Shown here in pieces: positions 23,693-39,600 of a DNA stretch of 64,000 nucleotides (its first letter is position 1; every line of letters starts with the position of its first letter). This DNA comes from Prorocentrum cordatum (Eukaryota > Sar > Dinophyceae > Prorocentrales > Prorocentraceae). Below the pieces are notes generated by a model that made no database searches, had not been told where the DNA came from, and was given only the letters and a program-made list of their open reading frames with translations. Location: positions 312,501-376,500 of the forward strand of contig CAUYUJ010018059.1 in the NCBI GenBank assembly GCA_963575745.1. The letters run 5' to 3'. Position numbers and translations under genes: made by a program.

Positions 23693-24151
23693 TACAACTA
23701 GTGTCGCGCCCCTGTGTTCCGACGGGCTCGCGCTTGCGCGTCGGCCCGTGGCCGAACTCCCCAGAAACACGCCGAGCAGCTACGTCTTGGTATCGTGCGG
23801 CATACGACGGATCAGCGTTCCGCCACGTGAGACTGCAGTATTGTGGACGTTTGATCTGCATGGTGCAGCATATGATCGCGCAGCATAGACATAGATGGCG
23901 CGGTGCACGCGAGATCAATATGGCGCAGAATGCCGCCTGGGAATTCTGAAACGCCGCGTCAAGCGGTCGGCCGCCGAGTGGGTAATGTGGAAAGGCAGCC
24001 GGTGCCTCAAAGTGCGGGCTGATGCAGCCGAGCGCGGGCGAGCGCCTGGCCGCTTGCAGGCCCTTGCTGACTTCCAGGACCTGGTGCAGGCGAGTGCGGG
24101 CGGGGGCCTCGAAATCGGAGGTTCTCGCCGGCCTGCAGCGTCAACTGCCCT

Positions 24152-24212
24152 TTTGCTCAAGAGGAGAGCGGCAAGGGGCTGCTCCTTGCTCACGAGGAGA
24201 ACGGCAAGGGGC
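24152..24212. repeat. Tandem near-duplicate at the LINE insertion site
   Basis: TTGCTCAAGAGGAGAGCGG at 24152 and TTGCTCACGAGGAGAACGG at 24186, each followed by CAAGGGGC, form a 34 bp tandem duplication that abuts the 5' target-site duplication of the LINE. Confidence 0.85.
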
Positions 24213-24218
24213 CACACT
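24208..24218. repeat. 5' target-site duplication of the LINE
   Basis: GGGGCCACACT here is identical to 34048-34058, directly after the hexanucleotide tail of the LINE. Including the preceding A the match is 12 bp. It fixes the element start at about 24219. Confidence 0.7.
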
Positions 24219-24590
24219 AAGCCCATTTGGCCTCTGGCGATCTGGGCCTGCGATCCGATCGATCGGTCGGGTTCGATCGGCGCCTGCCGCCCGATCGATC
24301 CCGCCTCGCAGGCCGATCGCGAGGCCGGGCTCAGCGCGCCGCGGATCGGCGATTCGCCGCCTCCGCGGCCGCGCCCTGGCCTCTGGCGGCTGCCGCGCGC
24401 CTTCGGCGCGCCCTGGAGATGCCCGACGCCCCAGGAGCCCGCCTGGCACAGGCGGCAGAGAGAACGCCGAGCCTCTGCACGAGCTCTTCTTCGTGTCGTG
24501 AAGGCGGCCGACCTCCTCAGCGGCCACCACTCCGCGCAGCAGCACCAGCGCCCCCAGCAGCACGTGCTGCAGGACTTCGAGACCAGCGCG
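24219..24590 (+). promoter_or_regulatory. LINE 5' untranslated region with a CGATCG cluster
   Basis: Between about 24250 and 24360 CGATCG occurs several times (GATCGATCGG, TTCGATCGG, CCGATCGATCC, GCCGATCGCG). LINE promoters are internal and lie in this position. A dense palindromic motif here could be a regulatory cluster. No start codon in the ORF1 frame precedes 24591. Confidence 0.4.
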
Positions 24591-27179
24591 ATGGCAGCCA
24601 ACGCCAAGTCTCACGGTCATCCAGTGGGCGCCAAGCCGTGGCCATGGAGGTCAAGCACACCAGCATCTGGCTCCTCTCACCGCCGACACCACGGAGGGCA
24701 CGGACAGCAGCAGCCACGGTACCAGCCCCAGCACAACCAGCACCACCACACCTCCTACCACGACGAGGACCGACAGCAACACAACTACGCCCAGCATCAG
24801 CAGCAGTATCAGTACGATAGCACCACAGCGAGAACGAAGCGGCCTCCCTCGAGACGACGCCGCCTGGCCCCCGAGGATACCACCAACGACCACCGACATC
24901 TACAAAAGATGACGAAACGACAGTTGGAGGTCACTGACAAGGTAATGCCCGCCTTGCTTTCGGATGCCAAGGGACATGAAAGTTTTTCTCTCCCTCCCGA
25001 CGAGCCAGACATACGTCGGGTCTGGCACGCGACCAAGGTGGCGAGGATGGCACGTCTTGCCGACCAAGTCCTCGGAGCCAGGCAAGCTCAAGTTGACCCA
25101 ACCCGCCTGATCGAGGAGCTGGCCATAGTCAAGACCATGCTACATCTATTGGACACGCCGACGGCTCGCATCGCTCAATATAGGTCTCAAGTGGAGTCAC
25201 GGATCCAGAGACAACAGATCGTCGAGAGCCAGCTTCACGACCTCAATAAGGAGCACGACGAGATCAAGCGCGAGATCGCATCCCTCAAGGCACTCATCTC
25301 CGAGGCCAAACAGCATCGAGAACATGCGGACCTTTCGGAAGACAGTTGTGACGGGGACGGAGAAGATGACGCGCGCCACCGTGTCAGGGGCAAAACACCA
25401 CACCCTGAGGGACGACAGCGACCACCAGTTCGTCAACCTGCGTCCGAGCCAGCGCCTGCTTCGACTACCAACGACGACAGCGACCTGCGGAAACTCATTG
25501 ACGTGCTGACGAGGAGAGTGGATGAGCAGCAGCGCAACCACGGGATACACCAACACCATCTGGCGTTTCTCCATCATGAACGTGCCGAATCTGATCAACA
25601 CGAAGCACAGCGTCAACTGCAGACCGAGCAGATTCAGGAGCTTTCGCAACATCTACAACACTGCCAGGAACAGTTTCAGCAAGCACAACTCCAGCAGAGA
25701 CAGTCGTACTACGACGAGATCCAAGTCTTCCGACGGCGCGAGGAGCGGCTCCGACACGAGGCTCGCGAATCCATCACGGAGAACATGGCTCACTACCAGC
25801 GGAAGGAGGCCTACCTGCGCGACCAGCTCAAGGAGGAGGAGTCAGCGCACCTCGCCACTTTCATCACCCAGAGGAAGCAAGAGGAAGAGACTTTCCGACA
25901 CCAGCTACACGAGAACGCCGAGATCATGGTCCAACAATATCAACAACGCTGCCACGAACAACAGCAACGTCTTCTCTCCGAGAAAGCTCAGGCTCAGCAG
26001 GACATCAGCAACATCGCGAGGCTTGAACAGAACCAGCTTCAGGATGCCAAGGAGCTACTTTTGGAGGAGTTCGGACAGGTCCAGGCTCAGAAGTACCGCA
26101 CTTTGACGGCCCAGAGCGAGTACAACAGCGAGATCGACAGGCTTCGAGGCACTTCCCGTGACATACAGCGCTTCGAGAACGAACTCCAGGAGCAGCACCA
26201 ACTCCAACTACAGGAGCACCTTCAGCAACACAGACAGGAGCGCGAGCGACTGCACTGCGAACTACAGCAAGCCCACGAGTTCGGCACCAGCATCGACGTG
26301 GACATCCTCAGGGAGCTCGACACACAACTCCAAGAACGAGACGAGGAAGACGCACGACTGCAAGCCCAAGCAGACGCTGAACAAGCACATGCCGACCAAC
26401 AGATTCAAGCGGCACTCGACCTGCTGACCCCACCTTCTACCTCCGAGGACTCGGGCTATCAACTCTACCTCAGAAACCGCGGCAGCAGCAGCGGTGGACA
26501 GCACAGCAGCAGCGGACAGCGCGGCAGCACACCACCACCACGACCGACACCTGCGACGCCAACCGCTACTCCGACCGCGCGACGCCCATGCCACGACGCC
26601 GACGACGCCAGCGTGCACACTCCAATCCCAGCCGACGACGACGACCTTTGCAGCCCAACCCCTGTTGCGAGCGACGCATATCCCTTCCCTGCCCCTACGC
26701 CATTACCTACCCCCGCCTCGCATACGCCGATTCCCACCGAGCAGCCTACGCCCATCGACTTCCACCCACCCGACCCGCAGAATGACCGACCCAGCTCAGC
26801 GCCACCACCACGCACCAGAAGGACAGACTCAACTCGGCACACCCACCCATCCACTACTCTTCTCATTGACATCACATCCGACGACGACGCACCACCACCT
26901 TCCACCCCAGTGCGCATTCCACTAGCCGACATATCCCCTACCGCACCGATGCAGCCACTCCTACCACCACCCCGCTTCCACCTCGCCACGCCCGACCGCG
27001 CCACCTCTGCTCCTCCACCCCGCACCGCTCTCCGAAAAAACGGATCATCTAGCCGAGCGGCCAAGCCCAAGAAAGTCCGTATCTGCGACATCGGAGACGG
27101 CTTCACAGACCCAGGAGACCGTGTGCCAGCCTTCCTCTACGACGAGGAAGCCCCTGCGGTCAACTCACCAAAAAACTAA
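24591..27179 (+). CDS. LINE ORF1: 862-residue coiled-coil protein
   Basis: This is the ORF1 protein of the LINE, expected to bind element RNA and form the retrotransposition particle in the cytoplasm. The frame is open from well before the element, but 24591 is the first in-frame ATG inside the element boundaries, giving 862 residues. Residues about 1-105 are His/Gln/Arg-rich and low in complexity. Residues about 107-165 form a globular-looking segment (MTKRQLEVTDKVMPALL). Residues about 165-610 are strongly heptad-like and rich in Gln, Glu and Arg, a long coiled coil with a short acidic break near residue 250. Residues about 610-830 are Pro/Thr/Ser-rich, and the last 30 are basic then acidic. 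I see no zinc knuckle or RNA-recognition motif. The last two sense codons and the stop form the frameshift site described separately. The ORF1 role is inferred from position and coiled-coil content. Confidence 0.9.
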   Translation: MAANAKSHGHPVGAKPWPWRSSTPASGSSHRRHHGGHGQQQPRYQPQHNQHHHTSYHDEDRQQHNYAQHQQQYQYDSTTARTKRPPSRRRRLAPEDTTNDHRHLQKMTKRQLEVTDKVMPALLSDAKGHESFSLPPDEPDIRRVWHATKVARMARLADQVLGARQAQVDPTRLIEELAIVKTMLHLLDTPTARIAQYRSQVESRIQRQQIVESQLHDLNKEHDEIKREIASLKALISEAKQHREHADLSEDSCDGDGEDDARHRVRGKTPHPEGRQRPPVRQPASEPAPASTTNDDSDLRKLIDVLTRRVDEQQRNHGIHQHHLAFLHHERAESDQHEAQRQLQTEQIQELSQHLQHCQEQFQQAQLQQRQSYYDEIQVFRRREERLRHEARESITENMAHYQRKEAYLRDQLKEEESAHLATFITQRKQEEETFRHQLHENAEIMVQQYQQRCHEQQQRLLSEKAQAQQDISNIARLEQNQLQDAKELLLEEFGQVQAQKYRTLTAQSEYNSEIDRLRGTSRDIQRFENELQEQHQLQLQEHLQQHRQERERLHCELQQAHEFGTSIDVDILRELDTQLQERDEEDARLQAQADAEQAHADQQIQAALDLLTPPSTSEDSGYQLYLRNRGSSSGGQHSSSGQRGSTPPPRPTPATPTATPTARRPCHDADDASVHTPIPADDDDLCSPTPVASDAYPFPAPTPLPTPASHTPIPTEQPTPIDFHPPDPQNDRPSSAPPPRTRRTDSTRHTHPSTTLLIDITSDDDAPPPSTPVRIPLADISPTAPMQPLLPPPRFHLATPDRATSAPPPRTALRKNGSSSRAAKPKKVRICDIGDGFTDPGDRVPAFLYDEEAPAVNSPKN

Positions 27180-27223
27180 CGAGGCCCTCGCCCCCTGGGG
27201 GGCAACTGGCCCAGGGGGAGCGG
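27170..27223 (+). promoter_or_regulatory. Predicted -1 programmed ribosomal frameshift site
   Basis: The ORF1 codons CCA AAA AAC TAA place the canonical heptamer A AAA AAC at 27170-27176 in the correct phase, directly before the UAA stop. Downstream, CCCCCTGGG (27191-27199) is perfectly complementary to CCCAGGGGG (27210-27218). Weaker pairing (27186-27189 with 27220-27223) extends the stem to within 9 nt of the heptamer, a typical spacer. Shifting by -1 gives CTA ACG AGG and an open frame into ORF2. Confidence 0.8.
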
Positions 27224-27322
27224 CCCAGCATCATACCAGAAGACTGCCAGCGCAACGACGGCACTTCCGACTCCTGCAGTGGTTACGCCGACGACGTCAC
27301 GCGCCGACTATTTGAGCCCCTG

Positions 27323-30300
27323 GTGAGCTCCGATTCACCATGCGACACTTCACAAGTTTCACCTACCCTCTCATCAGCCAATAGCGGCATGCGCGTTGGG
27401 GACAGCGCACCTCCAGATCTTTACGAGCATGGCGACATGTGGGAAATCCACACACCGCCCAACATGCTACAGCCTAGTAGTGGACCGTGGACCATCCCCT
27501 CGGCCTCTACCTCTCGCTTGGGGAGCGCGAGAAGGCTGTCTAACACAGATCCCACACTAGAACCACATACGCTAGCTGACCGACCAACTACCGCCACCCA
27601 ACCTCGACGGCAGCATGTCGACTCACATCCTCCACCAGCGGAAGCCCAGTCACGGTCGTTCCCGACGATGACGACGCCACCGCCTACGCCTCGAGAGGAA
27701 GCATCGCTTTGTGAGTACGACACGGGGGGGGCCTCCATTGGGTGCGGCCGTCTGGGGCCAGAACGACCAGAGCCACCAACAAGGCATCGACGCACTAGCC
27801 ATTTTGGCCAAGATGGCGATCGAGACCGACAATTTTGTGACTCACCGAGCCGGCCATGTACATCAACTTCCTGCCGGCTACAACCTCCCATTTTTGACTC
27901 CCTTGACGCTACCCAGATCCCACGCGGACAGACCGACCTGCCAAAGGCGGAGAGCCACGAGGCAATACGGCATGTTCGTTTCTCCCGCGAGGTTCACACC
28001 CGCGACCATCAGACCGACAATATCCTCTACCATATCGACTTCGACGAACAGGAGCCCTTACTCCAGCACCTTCGACGACTTCAGGCTCCCAGGCTTACCT
28101 TCGACTTTACCGACCGTTGCCACAACGAGGTTTCAGATTACATGGTGCGAACATTTCCATACCGACAGCTTCCACGAGATTCTCGCCTGTATTTATACAC
28201 CGACGGCTCCAAACACCCACGCCAACATGGTCAAGACGGATGGTCGGTTGTACTCGTCGGAGAAGACGAAGAAGGTTTCTCTTTTCAAGGCGCAATAGTC
28301 GGCAAGCACCGCGACTCCACCCTCGTAGAGATACAAAACCTCACGGACAACGAGACCACCTCGACATCCAGCGAGATCACAGCGCTCATCTGGGCGCTCG
28401 CCTACATCATCCACAAGGACATCAACCACAGTATCTCGGTCCACTCCGACTCGCTGGGAGCGATCCAACTGGCCAGGATGGAGGCTTTTACTAACCGCGA
28501 CGCCCACCTCGTGCAGCTACTGGTGATCATGTATTCGCACGTCAAGGAATATGTCGACCTGCGTCACGTTCATGCCCACGAGATGAACCCGTGGAACGAA
28601 GTTGCCGACGCCGCGGCCAACTACGCCCGCATCGAGGACTACCCGCACCCACAACCTGAATGGGCTAACATACTCAACGCGTCCCCTCAGCGCAGCTGGG
28701 AATTCCTACTTGACGCCGACAACCACACCAAGGACGCTTACCCATCCTTTTCACCTGGGATGCTCAAGGCCCAGCGCATCGATACCACGGCAACGACAGC
28801 TCACCTTTCGACACCAGCCAAGTCCACGAAGACCTCGACCGAGATAGATGTCAACATCGCCACCTATAACATTCAGTCAGGGCGCGAACCTGGCCACGGC
28901 GCTCGACGACGCAAAGAAAAGATCCACAAGCTCAGAAAGACTATGCTCAACCTGTACATGGAGGACCTCCACCTGATCGGCATCCAGGAAGCCCGCACGC
29001 CCTGGGGAGTTCGCAGCGGCAACGACATCACCAGCACGAGTGCGTACGCCTACCACGTCATCTCAGGGGGCCACGATCAGTACAACCTCGGCTGCGAGCT
29101 CCACATACTCACCAGCAAGCCGTACGGAAAGGCAGGAGCCAAGGACCTCTACTTCCGCCCCGATCAGTTCACCGTCATCGAGCACAGCCCTCGGCATCTC
29201 GTAGTAAGGATCGAAGCTCCAGGCTTTCGACATACAGTCTGCGTCGCCCACGCACCACATTCACGAGCCAAGCCACACGAGAAGGATATCTTCTGGGAGA
29301 TGATCGAGTGCGCAACTTCTAACCACAATATCAACATCTTCTTCATCGACGCCAACGCCCGAACGGGCAGCTTATGCAGCCAGGCAATCGGCGATCAAGG
29401 CTTCAAGCAAAAGGAGGACGACAACGGCGAACGCTTCCACAAGGTCCTGCAAGGCAACTCTCTCATCGCCGCGAATACCTTCAAAAGTGGAGGCCAGGAC
29501 CACTACACATGGGACTCAGGCAAGGACGTGCACAGACTGGACTACATAGTGGTTGGCCACGAGCTCTTCGACTCCATCTCCTACACGTCCGTAATGTACG
29601 GTATCGACACAGAACACGACCACTCACACAAGAACGACCACTTCCCTGTCAAGGCTAACCTCGCCTACACCGTCGAGACCGCCTACCAGCACGGCACGCC
29701 CAAGCTCGACATCGCTAAGCTCGACTCCGAGACAGCCAAGAACGACTTTCAACGACGCCTGCAGAAGATCCAACACCCCCCCTGGGAGACCAACCTCAAC
29801 GACCATACTAAGAGCATCGTCGATCAGATAAAGGACGCAGCCTACGCCAGCTTCAAGAAGCAGCATCATGCTCCCCGCAAGCCCTACATTACCGAGGCCT
29901 CCTACGCGCTTCTTCGATTCCGACGCACCCTCCTCAAGACGATCCGCATCGTGAAAAGGAATGGCATTGGCTCCAAGAAATCACGCAGACGGATCCGATA
30001 CACCGCGCACCTCATCGCAAACCAGTCGGCCTCAGCGTCCCCTGACGACGTCATCCACCTCATGGACATCCCTGGATATACTCAGCTGATGATCAAGACC
30101 ATCCTCTTCATCAGCCACGCGGACCCCGACCATACCACGGCTCCACACCACGACAGCACCTACTGCACTACCACCTTCACTACTGATCTTTTCGACTCAT
30201 ACATGAGCTTCATCCAAGATACCGACCGCGTTCTCAGAAACCGCCTCGACCACGACCGCGACGCCCACCTCGAGCGCTTCTCCGACAACATGATATTATC

Positions 30301-33300
30301 AGCCGCAGGGAACGCCCCGCGGCAGGAATGGGCAAACGTGAGGGCCTTACTCACATACGGCGGCCGCACACCTAAGAGAACTCCGACTCCCAAAATACGC
30401 CAAGACGATGACGGCGCTCCACTCACGACGCCACAAGCCATTGCGGAGCACGCCCTTCGATACTACGGCAACATCGAGAACGGCATCAACACCGACATCG
30501 AAGGCGTCGTCAAGTACTACAACAACAAGACCGCGCACACAAAGCCGATACCCCACATCGACAACGTCCAGACCATCCGCAACCTGACATCCGCCCTGGC
30601 AGCCGCCAAGAAAGGCAGACGCGGCGGACCCGACGGGAACACCGACGACATGGCACGAGCAGCGCCGCGCCAGATTGCCCGACTTCTGCACCCCATCATG
30701 ATGAAGATGCAACTGATGACGACGGAGCCCATTTCGGCGAAGGGCGGTTTCTCCACCCATTTCTCCAAAGGACAAGGACAGCTTCATCTGCAGAAAGCCT
30801 ACAGGGGCATCCTCCTGAACAACACTATTGGCAAGATCAACAGCAAGTTCCTGAGAGGCCTCTTCCGCGACATCTTACCCGACCTGCTGATGGATACACA
30901 ATGCGGCGCCGTCCCTCACAAGGCGACTGACTTCATCACTCACACCGCCTACACCTTCTTGGACGACTGCCGTACGCAGGCTCGCACGGGCAGCATCCTC
31001 TTCCTGGACTTGAAAGAAGCCTTCCATTCGGTAATCAGGGAGTTCATTTTCCAGCTGCCGACTCAGGAGGACGAGCTCGAAGACGTCATCGACAACATCG
31101 AGATTCCCATCTGCCTCCTCCCCTCACTACGACAACGTCTTCGCTGTCCAGCACATCTCAACGCCCACGTCGACGACTCTCACCTCTGCGCCCTCGTTGC
31201 CGACCACCACACGGCCAACTGGATGACCGCCAAGGGCACCGACGCATACGTGATCCCTCGCACCAGTACCAGGCCAGGGGTGCCATACTCCGACGCAGCT
31301 TTCAACATGCATTTCTCCCTAGTGCTTCAGGCCATCGCCGACGACACCGATGGGGCAGAAGACGGCGAGAGCGGCCACCACATCCGCCCCTGCGACAACC
31401 CGCTCTTCTCTACGGCTCCTCATCAAGGCGGCAAGCTGACCAACATGTCCTTCGTCGACGACCTCACTGACTTCAACTCGACCACCCGCCACTCCGACAT
31501 CATTGACATCACAAGAACTTCAGCCGAACGTCTATGCCGTACAGCCTTTACCTACGGGCTCAAGCCACACCCAGACAAGACCAAGGTCATCATCTCCTTT
31601 AACGGGACGGGCTCCAACGTCGCACGCAGCAGGCTCGCACAGCAGAACATTACATCAATCCAGCTGAGCATCATGTCGATTTCGGTCCAGATCACAGACC
31701 AGCACCGACTCTTAGGCACCATCCTAACCAACGGCAGCATGGGCCCCGAGGTGCAGAATCGCATGCGACGAACCGACGCTTCGGCACGAGCTCTTGAGAG
31801 GCAAATCCTAAGACGTCGACGCCTACCCCGCAAAACGAAGATCAAGTACGTGCACGCCCTCTCGACTGCCTCATTGACCTGCAACCATCACGTCTGGCCA
31901 GCACTGACCCAGACTGACCACCAGCGCATCTCCAATGCCTACTCGAAGCCCTATCGCACGGCAGCTGGATTACCCAAAGCTAACTCGCAGCTTCATCATT
32001 TCACGGCCACCGAAGTAGTAGCTTACACTGGCATCCCCGACTTCGACCACCACCAGTCTGCTGGACGGCTGCGATACTTACCACGGCTTCTACGACACGC
32101 TCCTCAGCAGCTCCTCCAACTGCTTGACAACCAGCGACGGAGAAAGGGCTCATGGACATACATGCTTTTCCAGGACTTCGACTTCCTGCGCACATACCTG
32201 GACGACCAGCGCTGGCCCACGGCCAGCAAGCTCGACTCCGACGCTTTTGCATGGGCTCGCACCACGCCGAAGCACTTCACCAACTCCGTCAACCTGGCCG
32301 TCACAAACTACATCCGCGCCTCCAAAGACCACGCCCACGCCGACAAGTTGACCAAGGTGCTCAGACCCGACGGTCCCATTGGTGCGGGCCCCACGCCATC
32401 ACGCGACAACGGCGCCAGCAACTTCATCTGCTACGAGTGTGGAATCGTTACCAAGACCAAGCAGGGCATGGCAATACATATCGGACGTGAACACCGACGA
32501 CCTGATCATCCGCGAAACTGGGCATCGGGTACATCGTGCAGAATATGCCGCCAGAACTTCCACTCCTTCGCCAAGCTAGTGAAGCATCTAACGACGGTCG
32601 CCCGATGCCGACGGTCATGGCACCTGTGGTATTTACAAGGACCTGCCCTCACGGAGGAGGACGTGGCCACCAATCAGGCGATCTACGCGGCCAGCATAGC
32701 CGACAACAAACGTAGAGGCCGCCCCGAACTATACCACCCTATCCCTGCCCATGCATCCGACGTCACTCCCTTACCCTCCCTTGACCTATCACCTTCACCA
32801 CCGCCATTCTTCCCGACTGTACCAGAGCTTACACCACCACCACCAGCCCACTACCCTCGTACACCGACCAGAAACCGATCTCTGCTTTACCTCACCAACA
32901 CCGATAGACACCCGAACGATCCGCTCGACATTACGGACCAACGACTATGCTACAATGGAATGGTGATGGAACGGGTTACTCTGACCTTCGATGATCTCTA
33001 CTCTGTCGATCACCCATCCCAGTACGACGTCCTCGACTCGATCCACCAGCACATTCGACAAGGCGTCTTCGCGGGAGTGATGATCAACCTCTCACCCAGC
33101 ACTTGGATCGACCAAGTCGATGGCGACCCGCACGACAGAACGGCAGCATCTTCCAGAACAACCACGGACCCTTGGGGCAGAGTAAACCTTGGAGGTGAGG
33201 CAGCCGAACGTCGACTGATCGCGAACCACCATGCCCGCCTCGCCATCCACACCTTCCATGCTGCTCACGTTGCCGAAGTACCAGCACTACTAGCGCAATC

Positions 33301-33670
33301 CGCAGCCCCAGCAGGTCCGTCGGTGATGTGGAATACTGAGCTGATGTTCTATGCTACGGAGAATCTTGCTACGAGACGACCGACCATGGCAGACGCCACC
33401 AGCAGCCTCTACGCCATCTACTACGGCCTCTCCCAGGAATACGGCAATCCCCTCGACGATTTCGTCACCTCCATTTTGGGCAGCCTGCCCCAGCTTGAGG
33501 TCGGACTGCAGCATGCTGATCCGACGACCCGATCTGGCCGTAACAGGGCCCATGATGGTCGAGACAGGCGCCCACAACGGCAAGACGGCCGTTGCGCTCA
33601 AGATGGCCGCCAGCCCCATCCTGGACACCCCCTCGAGGGCGAGGGGGGGGAGGACACGGTTCAGGCCTGA
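27323..33670 (+). CDS. LINE ORF2: RNase H, AP endonuclease, reverse transcriptase, zinc fingers
   Basis: This polyprotein nicks the target and copies element RNA at the nick. Residues are counted from the GTG at 27323. RNase H is at 285-440 (D294 in TDGS, E351, D376, D429). The AP-type endonuclease is at 508-785 (N516, E556, D676 and N678 in DANAR, D772-H773). The reverse transcriptase is at about 1090-1470: GPDG 1102, YRGILLNN 1160, D1229 in LDLKEAFHSV, RPGVPYSD at motif B, D1379-D1380 in FVDD, and HRLLG 1461. Zinc finger 1 is C1703-C1706-H1719-H1724; finger 2 is C1739-C1742-H1755-C1762. Residues about 1870-2060 resemble a domain in the 38 kb pseudogene. RNase H upstream of the endonuclease is unusual. 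The frame is open upstream to the ORF1 stop and lacks an ATG until 27389, so expression is probably by -1 frameshift (about 2,164 residues from 27176). Confidence 0.95.
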   Translation: MSSDSPCDTSQVSPTLSSANSGMRVGDSAPPDLYEHGDMWEIHTPPNMLQPSSGPWTIPSASTSRLGSARRLSNTDPTLEPHTLADRPTTATQPRRQHVDSHPPPAEAQSRSFPTMTTPPPTPREEASLCEYDTGGASIGCGRLGPERPEPPTRHRRTSHFGQDGDRDRQFCDSPSRPCTSTSCRLQPPIFDSLDATQIPRGQTDLPKAESHEAIRHVRFSREVHTRDHQTDNILYHIDFDEQEPLLQHLRRLQAPRLTFDFTDRCHNEVSDYMVRTFPYRQLPRDSRLYLYTDGSKHPRQHGQDGWSVVLVGEDEEGFSFQGAIVGKHRDSTLVEIQNLTDNETTSTSSEITALIWALAYIIHKDINHSISVHSDSLGAIQLARMEAFTNRDAHLVQLLVIMYSHVKEYVDLRHVHAHEMNPWNEVADAAANYARIEDYPHPQPEWANILNASPQRSWEFLLDADNHTKDAYPSFSPGMLKAQRIDTTATTAHLSTPAKSTKTSTEIDVNIATYNIQSGREPGHGARRRKEKIHKLRKTMLNLYMEDLHLIGIQEARTPWGVRSGNDITSTSAYAYHVISGGHDQYNLGCELHILTSKPYGKAGAKDLYFRPDQFTVIEHSPRHLVVRIEAPGFRHTVCVAHAPHSRAKPHEKDIFWEMIECATSNHNINIFFIDANARTGSLCSQAIGDQGFKQKEDDNGERFHKVLQGNSLIAANTFKSGGQDHYTWDSGKDVHRLDYIVVGHELFDSISYTSVMYGIDTEHDHSHKNDHFPVKANLAYTVETAYQHGTPKLDIAKLDSETAKNDFQRRLQKIQHPPWETNLNDHTKSIVDQIKDAAYASFKKQHHAPRKPYITEASYALLRFRRTLLKTIRIVKRNGIGSKKSRRRIRYTAHLIANQSASASPDDVIHLMDIPGYTQLMIKTILFISHADPDHTTAPHHDSTYCTTTFTTDLFDSYMSFIQDTDRVLRNRLDHDRDAHLERFSDNMILSAAGNAPRQEWANVRALLTYGGRTPKRTPTPKIRQDDDGAPLTTPQAIAEHALRYYGNIENGINTDIEGVVKYYNNKTAHTKPIPHIDNVQTIRNLTSALAAAKKGRRGGPDGNTDDMARAAPRQIARLLHPIMMKMQLMTTEPISAKGGFSTHFSKGQGQLHLQKAYRGILLNNTIGKINSKFLRGLFRDILPDLLMDTQCGAVPHKATDFITHTAYTFLDDCRTQARTGSILFLDLKEAFHSVIREFIFQLPTQEDELEDVIDNIEIPICLLPSLRQRLRCPAHLNAHVDDSHLCALVADHHTANWMTAKGTDAYVIPRTSTRPGVPYSDAAFNMHFSLVLQAIADDTDGAEDGESGHHIRPCDNPLFSTAPHQGGKLTNMSFVDDLTDFNSTTRHSDIIDITRTSAERLCRTAFTYGLKPHPDKTKVIISFNGTGSNVARSRLAQQNITSIQLSIMSISVQITDQHRLLGTILTNGSMGPEVQNRMRRTDASARALERQILRRRRLPRKTKIKYVHALSTASLTCNHHVWPALTQTDHQRISNAYSKPYRTAAGLPKANSQLHHFTATEVVAYTGIPDFDHHQSAGRLRYLPRLLRHAPQQLLQLLDNQRRRKGSWTYMLFQDFDFLRTYLDDQRWPTASKLDSDAFAWARTTPKHFTNSVNLAVTNYIRASKDHAHADKLTKVLRPDGPIGAGPTPSRDNGASNFICYECGIVTKTKQGMAIHIGREHRRPDHPRNWASGTSCRICRQNFHSFAKLVKHLTTVARCRRSWHLWYLQGPALTEEDVATNQAIYAASIADNKRRGRPELYHPIPAHASDVTPLPSLDLSPSPPPFFPTVPELTPPPPAHYPRTPTRNRSLLYLTNTDRHPNDPLDITDQRLCYNGMVMERVTLTFDDLYSVDHPSQYDVLDSIHQHIRQGVFAGVMINLSPSTWIDQVDGDPHDRTAASSRTTTDPWGRVNLGGEAAERRLIANHHARLAIHTFHAAHVAEVPALLAQSAAPAGPSVMWNTELMFYATENLATRRPTMADATSSLYAIYYGLSQEYGNPLDDFVTSILGSLPQLEVGLQHADPTTRSGRNRAHDGRDRRPQRQDGRCAQDGRQPHPGHPLEGEGGEDTVQA

Positions 33671-34047
33671 CCGACCTGGGCCGCCACCCGCGTGCAGGCC
33701 GTCATGGGGGTGGTTTCCCTTCCTCCTCAGGCCTTTAATGAGCCCCCTCCTCCCGCTCCATCTTGCCACCCCCATGCGGCCTCTCCCTTATCCTCCATCT
33801 TGTCATCCTCTTTCTTCCTTCCTCTGGCCGCTCGTCCCCGAAACTCCTGGGCCCGTTTTTCTCGGTCCTTTTCGGCCCCCGCCCCTCCCCTTTCGAAGCC
33901 AATGCGGCTTTCCCTTTGTCCTCCTGGCGGGGGTCTGTGTCGGGGGGTGGCCCCCCCTACGCGCTTTGGGCGCGCGCGCGTAGCTCCGGCCGCGCGGACG
34001 GCTGCGTCCGACAGGACATCGAGCCGATAGCGATAGCGATAGCGATA
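33671..34047 (+). other. LINE 3' untranslated region and CGATAG tail
   Basis: Pyrimidine-rich sequence to about 33900 is followed by a small hairpin (CGGAC at 33994-33998 pairing with GTCCG at 34005-34009, six-base loop). The final tract at 34025-34048 is four perfect CGATAG units. Short tandem tails in place of poly(A) occur in several LINE clades. The hairpin next to the tail could be the site recognised by the reverse transcriptase. Confidence 0.75.
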
Positions 34048-34058
34048 GGGGCCACACT
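34048..34058. repeat. 3' target-site duplication of the LINE
   Basis: GGGGCCACACT, identical to 24208-24218. Confidence 0.7.
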
Positions 34059-34204
34059 GCGCCGCTCTTGGCGGTGACCTCCCACGCGAGGTGGGTCCAG
34101 CAACTTGCGCGCAGTGCCTCGAGCACCGTTGTCGGGGGCGCGACTGGGGCTCAGAATCCAGCAGTGGCGAAGCGTCCTGGCTCGCCTATAGGCCTACCAA
34201 ACAA

Positions 34205-36660: not shown

Positions 36661-39600
36661 GCCCGCCGCGTCACGGGGGGGAGGCTTCCGGACACCCTAA
36701 GGAAAGAGAGGGGCGGGATACGTGTGTGCTATCCTCCTCATCCTCCACCCCTCTTCCTTGTAAGCAGCTCCTCAGGGCGGGCCGGGCGTTTCGCTTGAGA
36801 TTTCCCTGTTGATGATCTTGACGCTTGAATCCTGCAGCACATTCAGTCATGGAGGGCGTGTAGTTGTCCAAACGAGGTTTTCGCCCTAGCGCCCCGCGCT
36901 CTCGTCTTGAGCAAGTGCAGCAGTTTCAGGGAGGAAGGGCGGGCGGTATTCAAACGTGGGGAAAAACACACAAACAACACCGTGGGGAAAAACAGACACA
37001 TCTGTGTGTGTGTGTTTTGCTTGTTTTTGTGTGTGTGTGTTTCCCCACAGTGTGTGTTTTTCCCCACAGTGTGTGTGTGTGTGTGTTTTTCCCACAGTGT
37101 GTGTTTTTTCTCCACTTGCTCTCGACCCAGCGCCGCGCACACTCGTGCTCAGAGCCTGCGACGCCTGCACGGACGGAGGGCGGCTCCTCTTCAAAAGTGA
37201 GGGTCTGTCGCTGCAGCGCCGCGCGCACCCGTTCGCGCAGGAGCTTCGAGGGTGCGCGTGGTCGGAGTTACGGAGGAGGAGGAGGAGGACGAAGAGGAGG
37301 AGGAGGAGGAGGAGGAGGAGGAGGAGGAGGAGGAGGAGGAGGAGGGGGGAGGAGGAGGGGAGGGTCCACGGGCTAGGGCCGCGGATTCCGAGCGCCCTCT
37401 CGGCCTTTCTTTTCCGCGGGCGGACGGCGCGGGTCGTGCAAGAGCTTCGAGGATGCGCGTGGTCGGAGTTACGGAACTGGTGCCCCAGCAAGCGTTGAGA
37501 CTGCCGTGGCGTAGCCCTCACGTTGATCCGCGGTGTTGCAATCCCAGGATTGGCGTCCTGGCCCGATACAGGACTGTCAGGACGCAACGGCCATGTTGAT
37601 TCGCGACGCTCAGATCCCAGGAGCGTAATTGAATTTTGGCGCGACTGAGGATTCTCAGATGGTTGTGTTCCAATAGGGCATTCCCCGCAATGGAAAATAA
37701 GCGCTTGTAGGGCCCAGTGAGGAGTCAACTTGGAGAGAGTTGTTGTTGTTGCAACATGGTTGATGCGTTTTGGGTGTACACTGGTCCTCCTCATTCTCCT
37801 GTTTCTCTTCCTCCTCCTCCTCCTCCTCGGTCGGTCGGTCGTGCGCGGTAAGGAGGGGGAGGCGCACCAGGGGCAAGAGGCGTAACAGACGGGCGTGAGT
37901 CCTTACTCGAAATGTCTAGACAAAAGGATGGGGAACCTGGAGCGGATGTCCTGAAGCATGGTGAAACGAATCAGGACACATTAGCCCGCCGGGTAAGCCT
38001 TGGCCGCAGCAGTTTCCCAGGTGATATCGCTCACTATTACACAGGGCCCCATCCAGTCATAGTTTGTCGAAGCTGATCCATTGCAGGTAGATGCACACAA
38101 AGCAACACGGGTGGTTTCACCACTCTTGCCCCAAAGCGACATTGGTGCAACACATGTTTGGAAACTCCTTGGCGGGCCTCTACCGCACACTCTTTTGGAA
38201 GAAACCATATGCTGGGGCAGTCCTGAACTCTCTTGCCCTGGGCGGGATATTCCAGTACGGTAGCTATCCCGTGTACCCAAGCCTTGCAAAGAAACAGCAA
38301 AGCCGTGCGTAGGAGTCGGTTGCCTAACTCCATTTGGGAGCCCTCTCTTGTCGTCACATGGCCCAGCCCCCAAAGTTTGTTGGCAAACCGTAGTGGACGG
38401 GGAGGCGTAGCAACGCCAGGAGCAGGCTTGTGCCTTGCCACTGACCAAGTCTCACAACGCGAACCCTCTACTACCCCCGCAACTCTCCCCGACCTGAGGG
38501 AGTCCAGCCAAAGGTGCACCGACTGGGCCCAAGGGAGGCCCCCCCAAACGGGACAATTGACAGCATCCAAACTGAGAGCGTGAAGTTTCGTGAGGAACCT
38601 AGTTTGTAGAGCCCGAAATGATCCTGGAGCAAGTGCTGCCGCGTTGACGTAGCCTTCGACATCTTGAGAACAGGGCCGATTGCTGGTCCTTGGCGCTGCA
38701 ACCACGAAGGAGAAGCGTGAGAGTCAGACCTGCCCGCCTTTCGGAGTGTGGCTGCTTCGTTCTTCGCCTCCGCACTCGCCTCGTTGAGCTCCTCCTCGCT
38801 GGATCGGAACCTGGTGGTTGCCCAAGATTGTCGACACGTCGGCGAATTGCCAAGATGCTTAGCGAGACGGCATACCTGTCGGACATCTCCAAGGAACACC
38901 TGGCAACATGTGCCAGAGGTTAGTTATCCTTTTCCTCCTCCTCCTCCTCCTCCTCCATCAGTCTTCCTTAAATATAATCCTGTCGCACCCCGTGGCCGGT
39001 CGAAGGGGCAAGCCAGGCGCTTCGCCGGAGATCTCCTCACCAGCTCTGCTCTTGAGGCTTGGCAATGTGCAGCGGCTTCGTGGATGGAGGGCGGGCTGCT
39101 TTCAAAGCGTAATTCTCGCTCGTGGGAAAAACATATACACACACACACACACACTGTGGGGAAAAAACACACTGTGGGAAAAAAAACTCAGTGTTTTTTG
39201 TGTGTTTTTGTCCCACAGACTCGTGTGTTTGTTTCCCACAATGTGTTTTGTGCCGCGCGCATTGGTGGTAAAACATTGCAAGAGATTCGGGGATTGAGGG
39301 CGGGCCGGTTTCAACATGTGGCTCTCGCTTCAGCTTCGCGCAAGGCGCCGCGCACATTCGTTGCGAACGCTTGCAGGAGCTTCACGGATGGAGGGCGGGC
39401 CGACTTCGAATTGCGGCTCGCTCTAGCGCCGCGCACATGTTTTCCAGCATTTCGCAAGAGCTTCACGGATGGAGGGCGGCTCCTTTTCAACAAGCGATTC
39501 TCGCTTTACCGCTGCGCGCATTCGTCGTTATGCAACCGATTCAAGAGTTTTCAAAGGTAATGTACGAGAAATTGTGCTTTGGCACGATGTCGGGACGCCA

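Follow-up and report, generated by a model that had tools for sequence, protein, structure and literature searches.

Long interspersed nuclear elements (LINEs) make much less protein from their second open reading frame (ORF2) than from their first (ORF1), and how they do so is an old question, the known answers to which are mostly reinitiation-like; in SART1 and L1, ORF2 is initiated independently. A study of Zorro3 describes the same arrangement, with ORF2 initiated at its own AUG (PMC1965478). For the LINEs of Paramecium, another report proposes +1 frameshifting or reinitiation in Groups 1 and 2, and readthrough in Group 3 (PMC5405496). The sections available of a 2016 review, which treat long terminal repeat (LTR) elements, the Drosophila telomeric elements HeT-A and TART and mammalian LINEs, state that HeT-A gag itself requires a frameshift and that the route used by TART is unknown, and describe no LINE with a -1 heptamer site (PMC5009743). 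Here we describe a full-length, 9.8 kb LINE from the bloom-forming dinoflagellate Prorocentrum cordatum, found within a 64,000 nt stretch of contig CAUYUJ010018059.1 (positions 312,501 to 376,500; henceforth the window, to which all coordinates refer), in which -1 ribosomal frameshifting probably yields an ORF1-ORF2 fusion protein; we put the probability of this reading at roughly 0.85.

A candidate frameshift signal at the end of ORF1

The last bases of ORF1 form the heptamer A_AAA_AAC, a canonical X_XXY_YYZ motif lying in ORF1 phase and immediately followed by the UAA stop codon (Table 1). The -1 frame, which overlaps the zero frame, is open from 27053 to a stop at 33670, with its first ATG at 27389, and the 862 residues of ORF1 together with the 2164 codons reached by the shift would give a product of 3026 residues. 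A 9-bp GC-rich stem begins 14 nt past the heptamer, and the minimum-energy fold adds a lower stem starting at 6 nt, hence the structure stands at a spacing suitable for frameshifting. With the exception of the lower stem, these features had all been picked out in a first-pass annotation of the window, and each was recovered on re-examination. A search of Rfam returned one match, far under its gathering score. In codon shuffling of ORF1, a canonical heptamer ended precisely at the stop with a probability of 0.00087. A second in-frame A_AAA_AAC in ORF1, at 27035-27041, serves as an internal control; the shuffling result and the conservation of the junction heptamer relative to this control, described below, led us to reject a chance occurrence.

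Under the mechanism we propose, ribosomes translating ORF1 would meet the heptamer directly before the stop codon, where the downstream hairpin, possibly together with a pseudoknot formed between the loop sequence CUGG and a downstream CCAG, would make a fraction of them slip back by one base on both tRNAs. The slipped ribosomes would pass the ORF1 stop and read ORF2, whilst an excess of ORF1 protein would be made beside the fusion, as with retroviral Gag and Gag-Pol. We infer both slippage and its efficiency, and also that the fusion would be the active enzyme.

Conservation of the junction in family A

The P. cordatum genome (4.13 Gb in 21,875 contigs) was searched for further copies of the element. 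The family to which the window copy belongs, family A, is represented by 79 other loci, these being the best-scoring candidates (39 plus 40) rather than an exhaustive set; no alignment across the junction was obtained for four of them (L080, L093, L102 and L103), leaving 75 which, with the window, make 76 rows. The heptamer is intact in 74 of these and the UAA stop in 75, as against a control heptamer at 27035 that is intact in 51 and broken in 25. From the heptamer to the Met codon at 27389 the -1 frame is unbroken in 73 of the 75 other copies, with L079 and L081 losing it through small indels, and ORF1 itself has indels in two copies (L003 and L021) of 39. Conservation in other genomic copies, which had been named in the first-pass annotation as a check on its proposal, is therefore borne out in this family.

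Variability was counted over 61 rows, after setting aside 15, namely L079 and a subgroup of 14 copies in which one stretch has been replaced. Two of the 37 sites between 27183 and 27219 vary, which is the lowest count of 368 intervals of the same size and the only one so low, whilst the spacer at 27180-27182 is variable at all three of its sites. The 14-copy subfamily (L081-L092, L099 and L104) has a different stretch at 27308-27388, and 13 of its members reach the Met codon in the same frame.

A junction pattern containing six As matches 86 places genome-wide and the equivalent with seven As matches none; the window copy itself falls outside the six-A pattern because position 27190 is G in it but A in each of the other 75 rows. 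These counts exclude a single-base indel or sequencing error as the origin of the junction in family A.

Recurrence of the junction and covariation of the stem

The same junction, its stem altered by compensatory changes, is present in a related, older family, B, whose ORF2 protein shows 46% identity across the part that aligned. When a 210 nt junction query from one family B copy was searched using blastn at E < 1, it aligned only to window positions 27167-27221 (79% over 57 nt, E 3.6e-7). Thirty family B loci were assembled, four of which (L045, L048, L055 and L064) have no junction, leaving 26. Counted by letters over the 25 loci registered on the loop (L053 being dropped), AAAAAAC is found in 16 and a stop codon directly behind it in 22 (UGA in 20, UAA in one and UAG in one). 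Counted by ORF1 phase, 16 of the 26 reach the adjacent stop, which makes this in-phase form with a stop the most frequent one, and ten (L047, L049, L054, L056-L059, L061, L062 and L070) have the heptamer intact and the stop in phase.

Over both families (33 of 35 distinct 60 nt rows, L042 and L079 being left out owing to indels), 93.3% of stem cells are paired, compared with 40-62% for slid partners. Between A and B, compensatory change affects two stem pairs, possibly through no more than two events; RNAalifold, run unaided, predicted 11 pairs, one of them compensated. The compensation at rung 6 alters the -1-frame amino acids on both sides of the stem (Pro to Ala, and Gly to Arg). Further downstream, 97 of the 101 rows from the two families contain CCAGAAGA. 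The loop CUGG and the CCAG are invariant in the rows compared, hence there is no covariation between the two; an invariant loop sequence with an invariant downstream complement makes a pseudoknot possible.

A loose pattern, fixed at AAC-UNA and at the inner stem and loop but nowhere else, matched 262 places, against none in a reversed control. Six of these were read, comprising four of a type D, one of a type E and one of a type F. Amongst the features left unfixed, AAAA precedes AAC in five of the six, and both a complementary 3' arm and a downstream CCAGAAGA are found in all six. Taking one representative each of types A, B, D, E and F, rungs 1-9 form standard pairs in 45 of 45 cells (a bulged A in D being skipped, and one pair in F being G-U); the pairs are CG or GC at rung 6, CG, GC or UA at rung 7, and CG, AU or UA at rung 8, and CUGG and CCAG are present in all five. 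A type D pattern (six or more As, then UGA), which would also match longer A runs, is found at 120 places and at none in the reversed control; all four of the type D junctions read carry exactly six As.

On sequence grounds, the case for a functional -1 signal is strong in family A, and elsewhere is backed by covariation of the stem. It seems reasonably likely that a clade of dinoflagellate LINEs carries a shared -1 cassette, through which ORF2 would be made as a Gag-Pol-like fusion. We think it similarly likely that this cassette, consisting of the heptamer, the abutting stop, a covarying stem with a fixed loop and a pseudoknot partner, is a single module represented in at least five diverged junction types.

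Points against frameshifting and alternative explanations

A number of observations weigh against this reading, besides the fact that the whole case is built on sequence. Within family A, the ORF2 frame shows no amino-acid selection directly after the shift, at 27183-27388 (S 13, N 31, null S 12.8), the stretch from heptamer to AUG showing none in any frame, and again none just past the AUG; selection becomes weakly apparent at 27800-28170 (P 0.048) and is strong in the ribonuclease H (RNase H) domain. In ORF1, frame 0 is under purifying selection over the parts tested, including its end (S 30, N 18, null S 14.1). In addition, ORF2 is broken by indels near 27723-27733 in ten of 39 family A copies. 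The lack of selection between signal and AUG would leave a linker peptide free to drift, and as there is no step in selection at AUG 27389, nothing there marks it as the real start.

The latter point bears on an alternative that we consider unlikely, namely that ORF2 starts independently at this AUG, through reinitiation, internal entry or a spliced-leader mRNA, the heptamer being incidental. The AUG precedes every recognised ORF2 domain, the motif MR[VD]GE is in frame in 73 of the 75 other family A copies, and the same Met is the start of P0003, a gene model annotated in P. cordatum. Other LINEs reinitiate, and in a distant family, C (one copy, L111), ORF2 is in the +1 frame relative to ORF1 and has its AUG 22 nt past the ORF1 stop. 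Of the AG dinucleotides within 50 nt 5' of the AUG, 27376 is retained in 62 of 76 rows and 27383 in 49, but 27355 in all 76, such that splicing would still be conceivable. However, translated family B copies have no conserved AUG near the start of ORF2, with the Met at around codon 49 alternating with Thr, and an independent start leaves the conserved heptamer, the adjacent stop and the covarying stem unexplained.

In family B, the check on conservation gave a divided answer: the junction recurs with a compensated stem, but the heptamer and stop are together in phase only in the ten copies listed above. Six of the 26 copies are in phase with a broken heptamer, seven are fused (L043, L044, L051, L060, L065, L067 and L068) and three lead into the third frame (L042, L052 and L069). 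In the fused copies the A run differs in length, by one extra base or something equivalent, so that ORF1 continues into the ORF2 frame without a shift; these copies may constitute a shift-free lineage. Family B copies are diverged, many having stops further down, and their phase irregularities are likely to reflect decay of an old family; nevertheless, because of this phase count our confidence in frameshifting was lowered slightly, from 0.87 to 0.85. The copies with an added base could also be cited in favour of RNA polymerase slipping on the A6 run, with a minority of A7 mRNAs fusing the ORFs at transcription, as one extra A produces the same fused frame. We judge this highly improbable: six As are short for polymerase slippage, seven-A genomic copies, which would be expected if A7 mRNAs were often retrotransposed, are absent from family A, and neither the stop right behind the heptamer nor the covarying stem is explained. 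The homopolymer at the junction and the same fused copies might suggest that one ancestral ORF was divided by the recent loss of a single base or by a mistake in assembly, but this is scarcely credible given the disparity between six-A and seven-A places in family A and the predominance of the in-phase, stopped form in family B.

The energy of the junction fold is ordinary for a GC-rich stretch (z = -0.62, with 46 of 200 shuffles as good), hence the stability of the stem is not in itself evidence, whereas its covariation is. Such covariation might instead be maintained by another RNA function, such as packaging, reverse transcriptase entry or pausing, with the neighbouring heptamer a coincidence; the loop is the most conserved piece, and the stem is still paired in family B copies with a broken or out-of-phase heptamer. 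The fixed distance among heptamer, stop and stem in the junction types read argues against this explanation, which we regard as very unlikely.

Of the further junction types, E (L118) has AAACAAC and F (L119) has a stop in the -1 frame, and so these two copies look decayed. Types D, E and F, for which junction letters and ORF1 phase over about 20 nt were read, are putative LINEs with a presumed ORF2; amongst the junctions listed, none of type D was seen by eye to adjoin an ORF2 match. The 2.2 kb of the family C copy that was read contains no canonical heptamer, hence the cassette is not general to these LINEs, and family C and the cassette families are predicted to use different ORF2 strategies.

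Structure of the element

The element is flanked by a perfect target-site duplication and lacks LTR-like repeats, with direct repeats of at least 60 nt absent from 24100-34200. Its 5' boundary (24218/24219) is shared with two other copies, which start at the same base and have different flanks. Its assignment as a LINE is further supported by a reverse transcriptase match that lies below the curated cut-off, by an apurinic/apyrimidinic endonuclease (APE)-type domain N-terminal to it, which has no direct Pfam match and is recognised indirectly through the PF03372-matching stretch of protein P0016, and by the presence of many dispersed copies in the one genome (40 scored of 251 candidates, and 86 exact junctions). 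ORF2 matches proteins of P. cordatum at 97-98% identity. The order of its domains, over 28184-32494, is RNase H, endonuclease, reverse transcriptase and zinc finger; in I/Jockey-type LINEs, RNase H is C-terminal rather than N-terminal. A protein search with ORF1 found no match at E 0.001 among the 8000 candidates listed, and scans of viral and prokaryote contigs and a search of solved structures gave nothing informative.

The 5' end of the element, AAGCCCATTTGGCCTC (24219-24240), is one that we take to resemble, with gaps, the dinoflagellate spliced leader. Elsewhere in the window, positions 44-1708 are taken up by a very long tract of imperfect GTA repeats in which GC skew is strong, and a GTGTGTG/TTTCCCCACA repeat is found in both orientations at 37029-37115 and 39149-39185, these possibly being introner-like ends.

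Table 1. Coordinates of the LINE and of its junction and domain features within the window
Feature	Position	Strand	Basis or remark
5' target-site duplication, AGGGGCCACACT	24207..24218	.	Perfect 12-bp repeat, flush with element
Full-length LINE, family A	24219..34046	+	Target-site duplications; 5' end common to two other copies
ORF1, 862 aa	24591..27179	+	Coiled-coil-like and Gln-rich by eye; no Pfam match
Slippery heptamer A_AAA_AAC	27170..27176	+	ORF1 phase; kept in 74/76 family A rows
ORF1 stop UAA, directly 3' of heptamer	27177..27179	+	Kept in 75/76 family A rows
ORF2 as reached by -1 shift, 2164 codons	27176..33670	+
Remainder of 6-nt spacer	27180..27182	+	All three sites variable (61 rows)
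Lower stem, 5' arm	27183..27188	+	Pairs with 27219-27225; minimum-energy fold
9-bp upper stem, 5' arm, CCCCCTGGG	27191..27199	+	Fold; covariation
Loop, GGGCAACUGG	27200..27209	+	CUGG at 27206-27209 invariant in family A
9-bp upper stem, 3' arm, CCCAGGGGG	27210..27218	+	Fold; covariation
Lower stem, 3' arm, one bulged base	27219..27225	+	Minimum-energy fold
CCAG, candidate pseudoknot partner of loop CUGG	27236..27239	+	76/76 family A rows; other junction types read
First AUG of ORF2 frame	27389..27391	+
RNase H domain, N-terminal to endonuclease	28184..28624	+	PF00075, E 2.5e-7
Endonuclease domain	28850..29608	+	BLASTP E 3e-20 to P0016, within its PF03372-matching stretch
Reverse transcriptase	30794..31591	+	PF00078, E 0.00044; 20.4 bits, under 29.6-bit cut-off
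C2H2-like zinc finger, weak	32417..32494	+	PF18387, E 0.085
3' tail, short GATAGC-type repeats	34023..34046	+
3' target-site duplication, AGGGGCCACACT	34047..34058	.

Comparison with known systems

No LINE with a -1 heptamer site was recognised in the open-access full-text literature, which was judged mostly from listings, subscription papers lying outside the search; -1 frameshifting would thus be a LINE strategy for which no earlier evolutionary evidence was found in that literature. If the reading is correct, the active LINE enzyme would bear the ORF1 protein at its N-terminus, and a -1 module backed by covariation would give a LINE the retroviral answer to the problem of ORF2 expression, in a dinoflagellate nucleus. 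The many natural variants of the junction are available for testing the rules that govern stem, loop and heptamer.

The element shares the two-ORF layout of Zorro3, SART1 and L1; however, its ORFs overlap in -1 phase and carry a conserved, putative recoding cassette. HeT-A and TART are likewise non-LTR elements discussed in connection with recoding, although no -1 heptamer is described for them in the available sections of the review (PMC5009743). The Paramecium non-LTR retrotransposons are protist LINEs in which ORF2 has also been proposed to need recoding, but for which the accessible part of the report proposes no -1 heptamer (PMC5405496). The likeness to the gag-pol sites of retroviruses and LTR retrotransposons lies in the X_XXY_YYZ heptamer, the GC-rich downstream structure and the enzyme-encoding ORF in the -1 frame, and A_AAA_AAC is named among the most shifty heptamers on mammalian ribosomes in the review (PMC5009743). 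In contrast to those systems, the element described here is a LINE, with no LTR-like repeat, an endonuclease upstream of its reverse transcriptase and a target-site duplication, and its stop codon directly abuts the heptamer.
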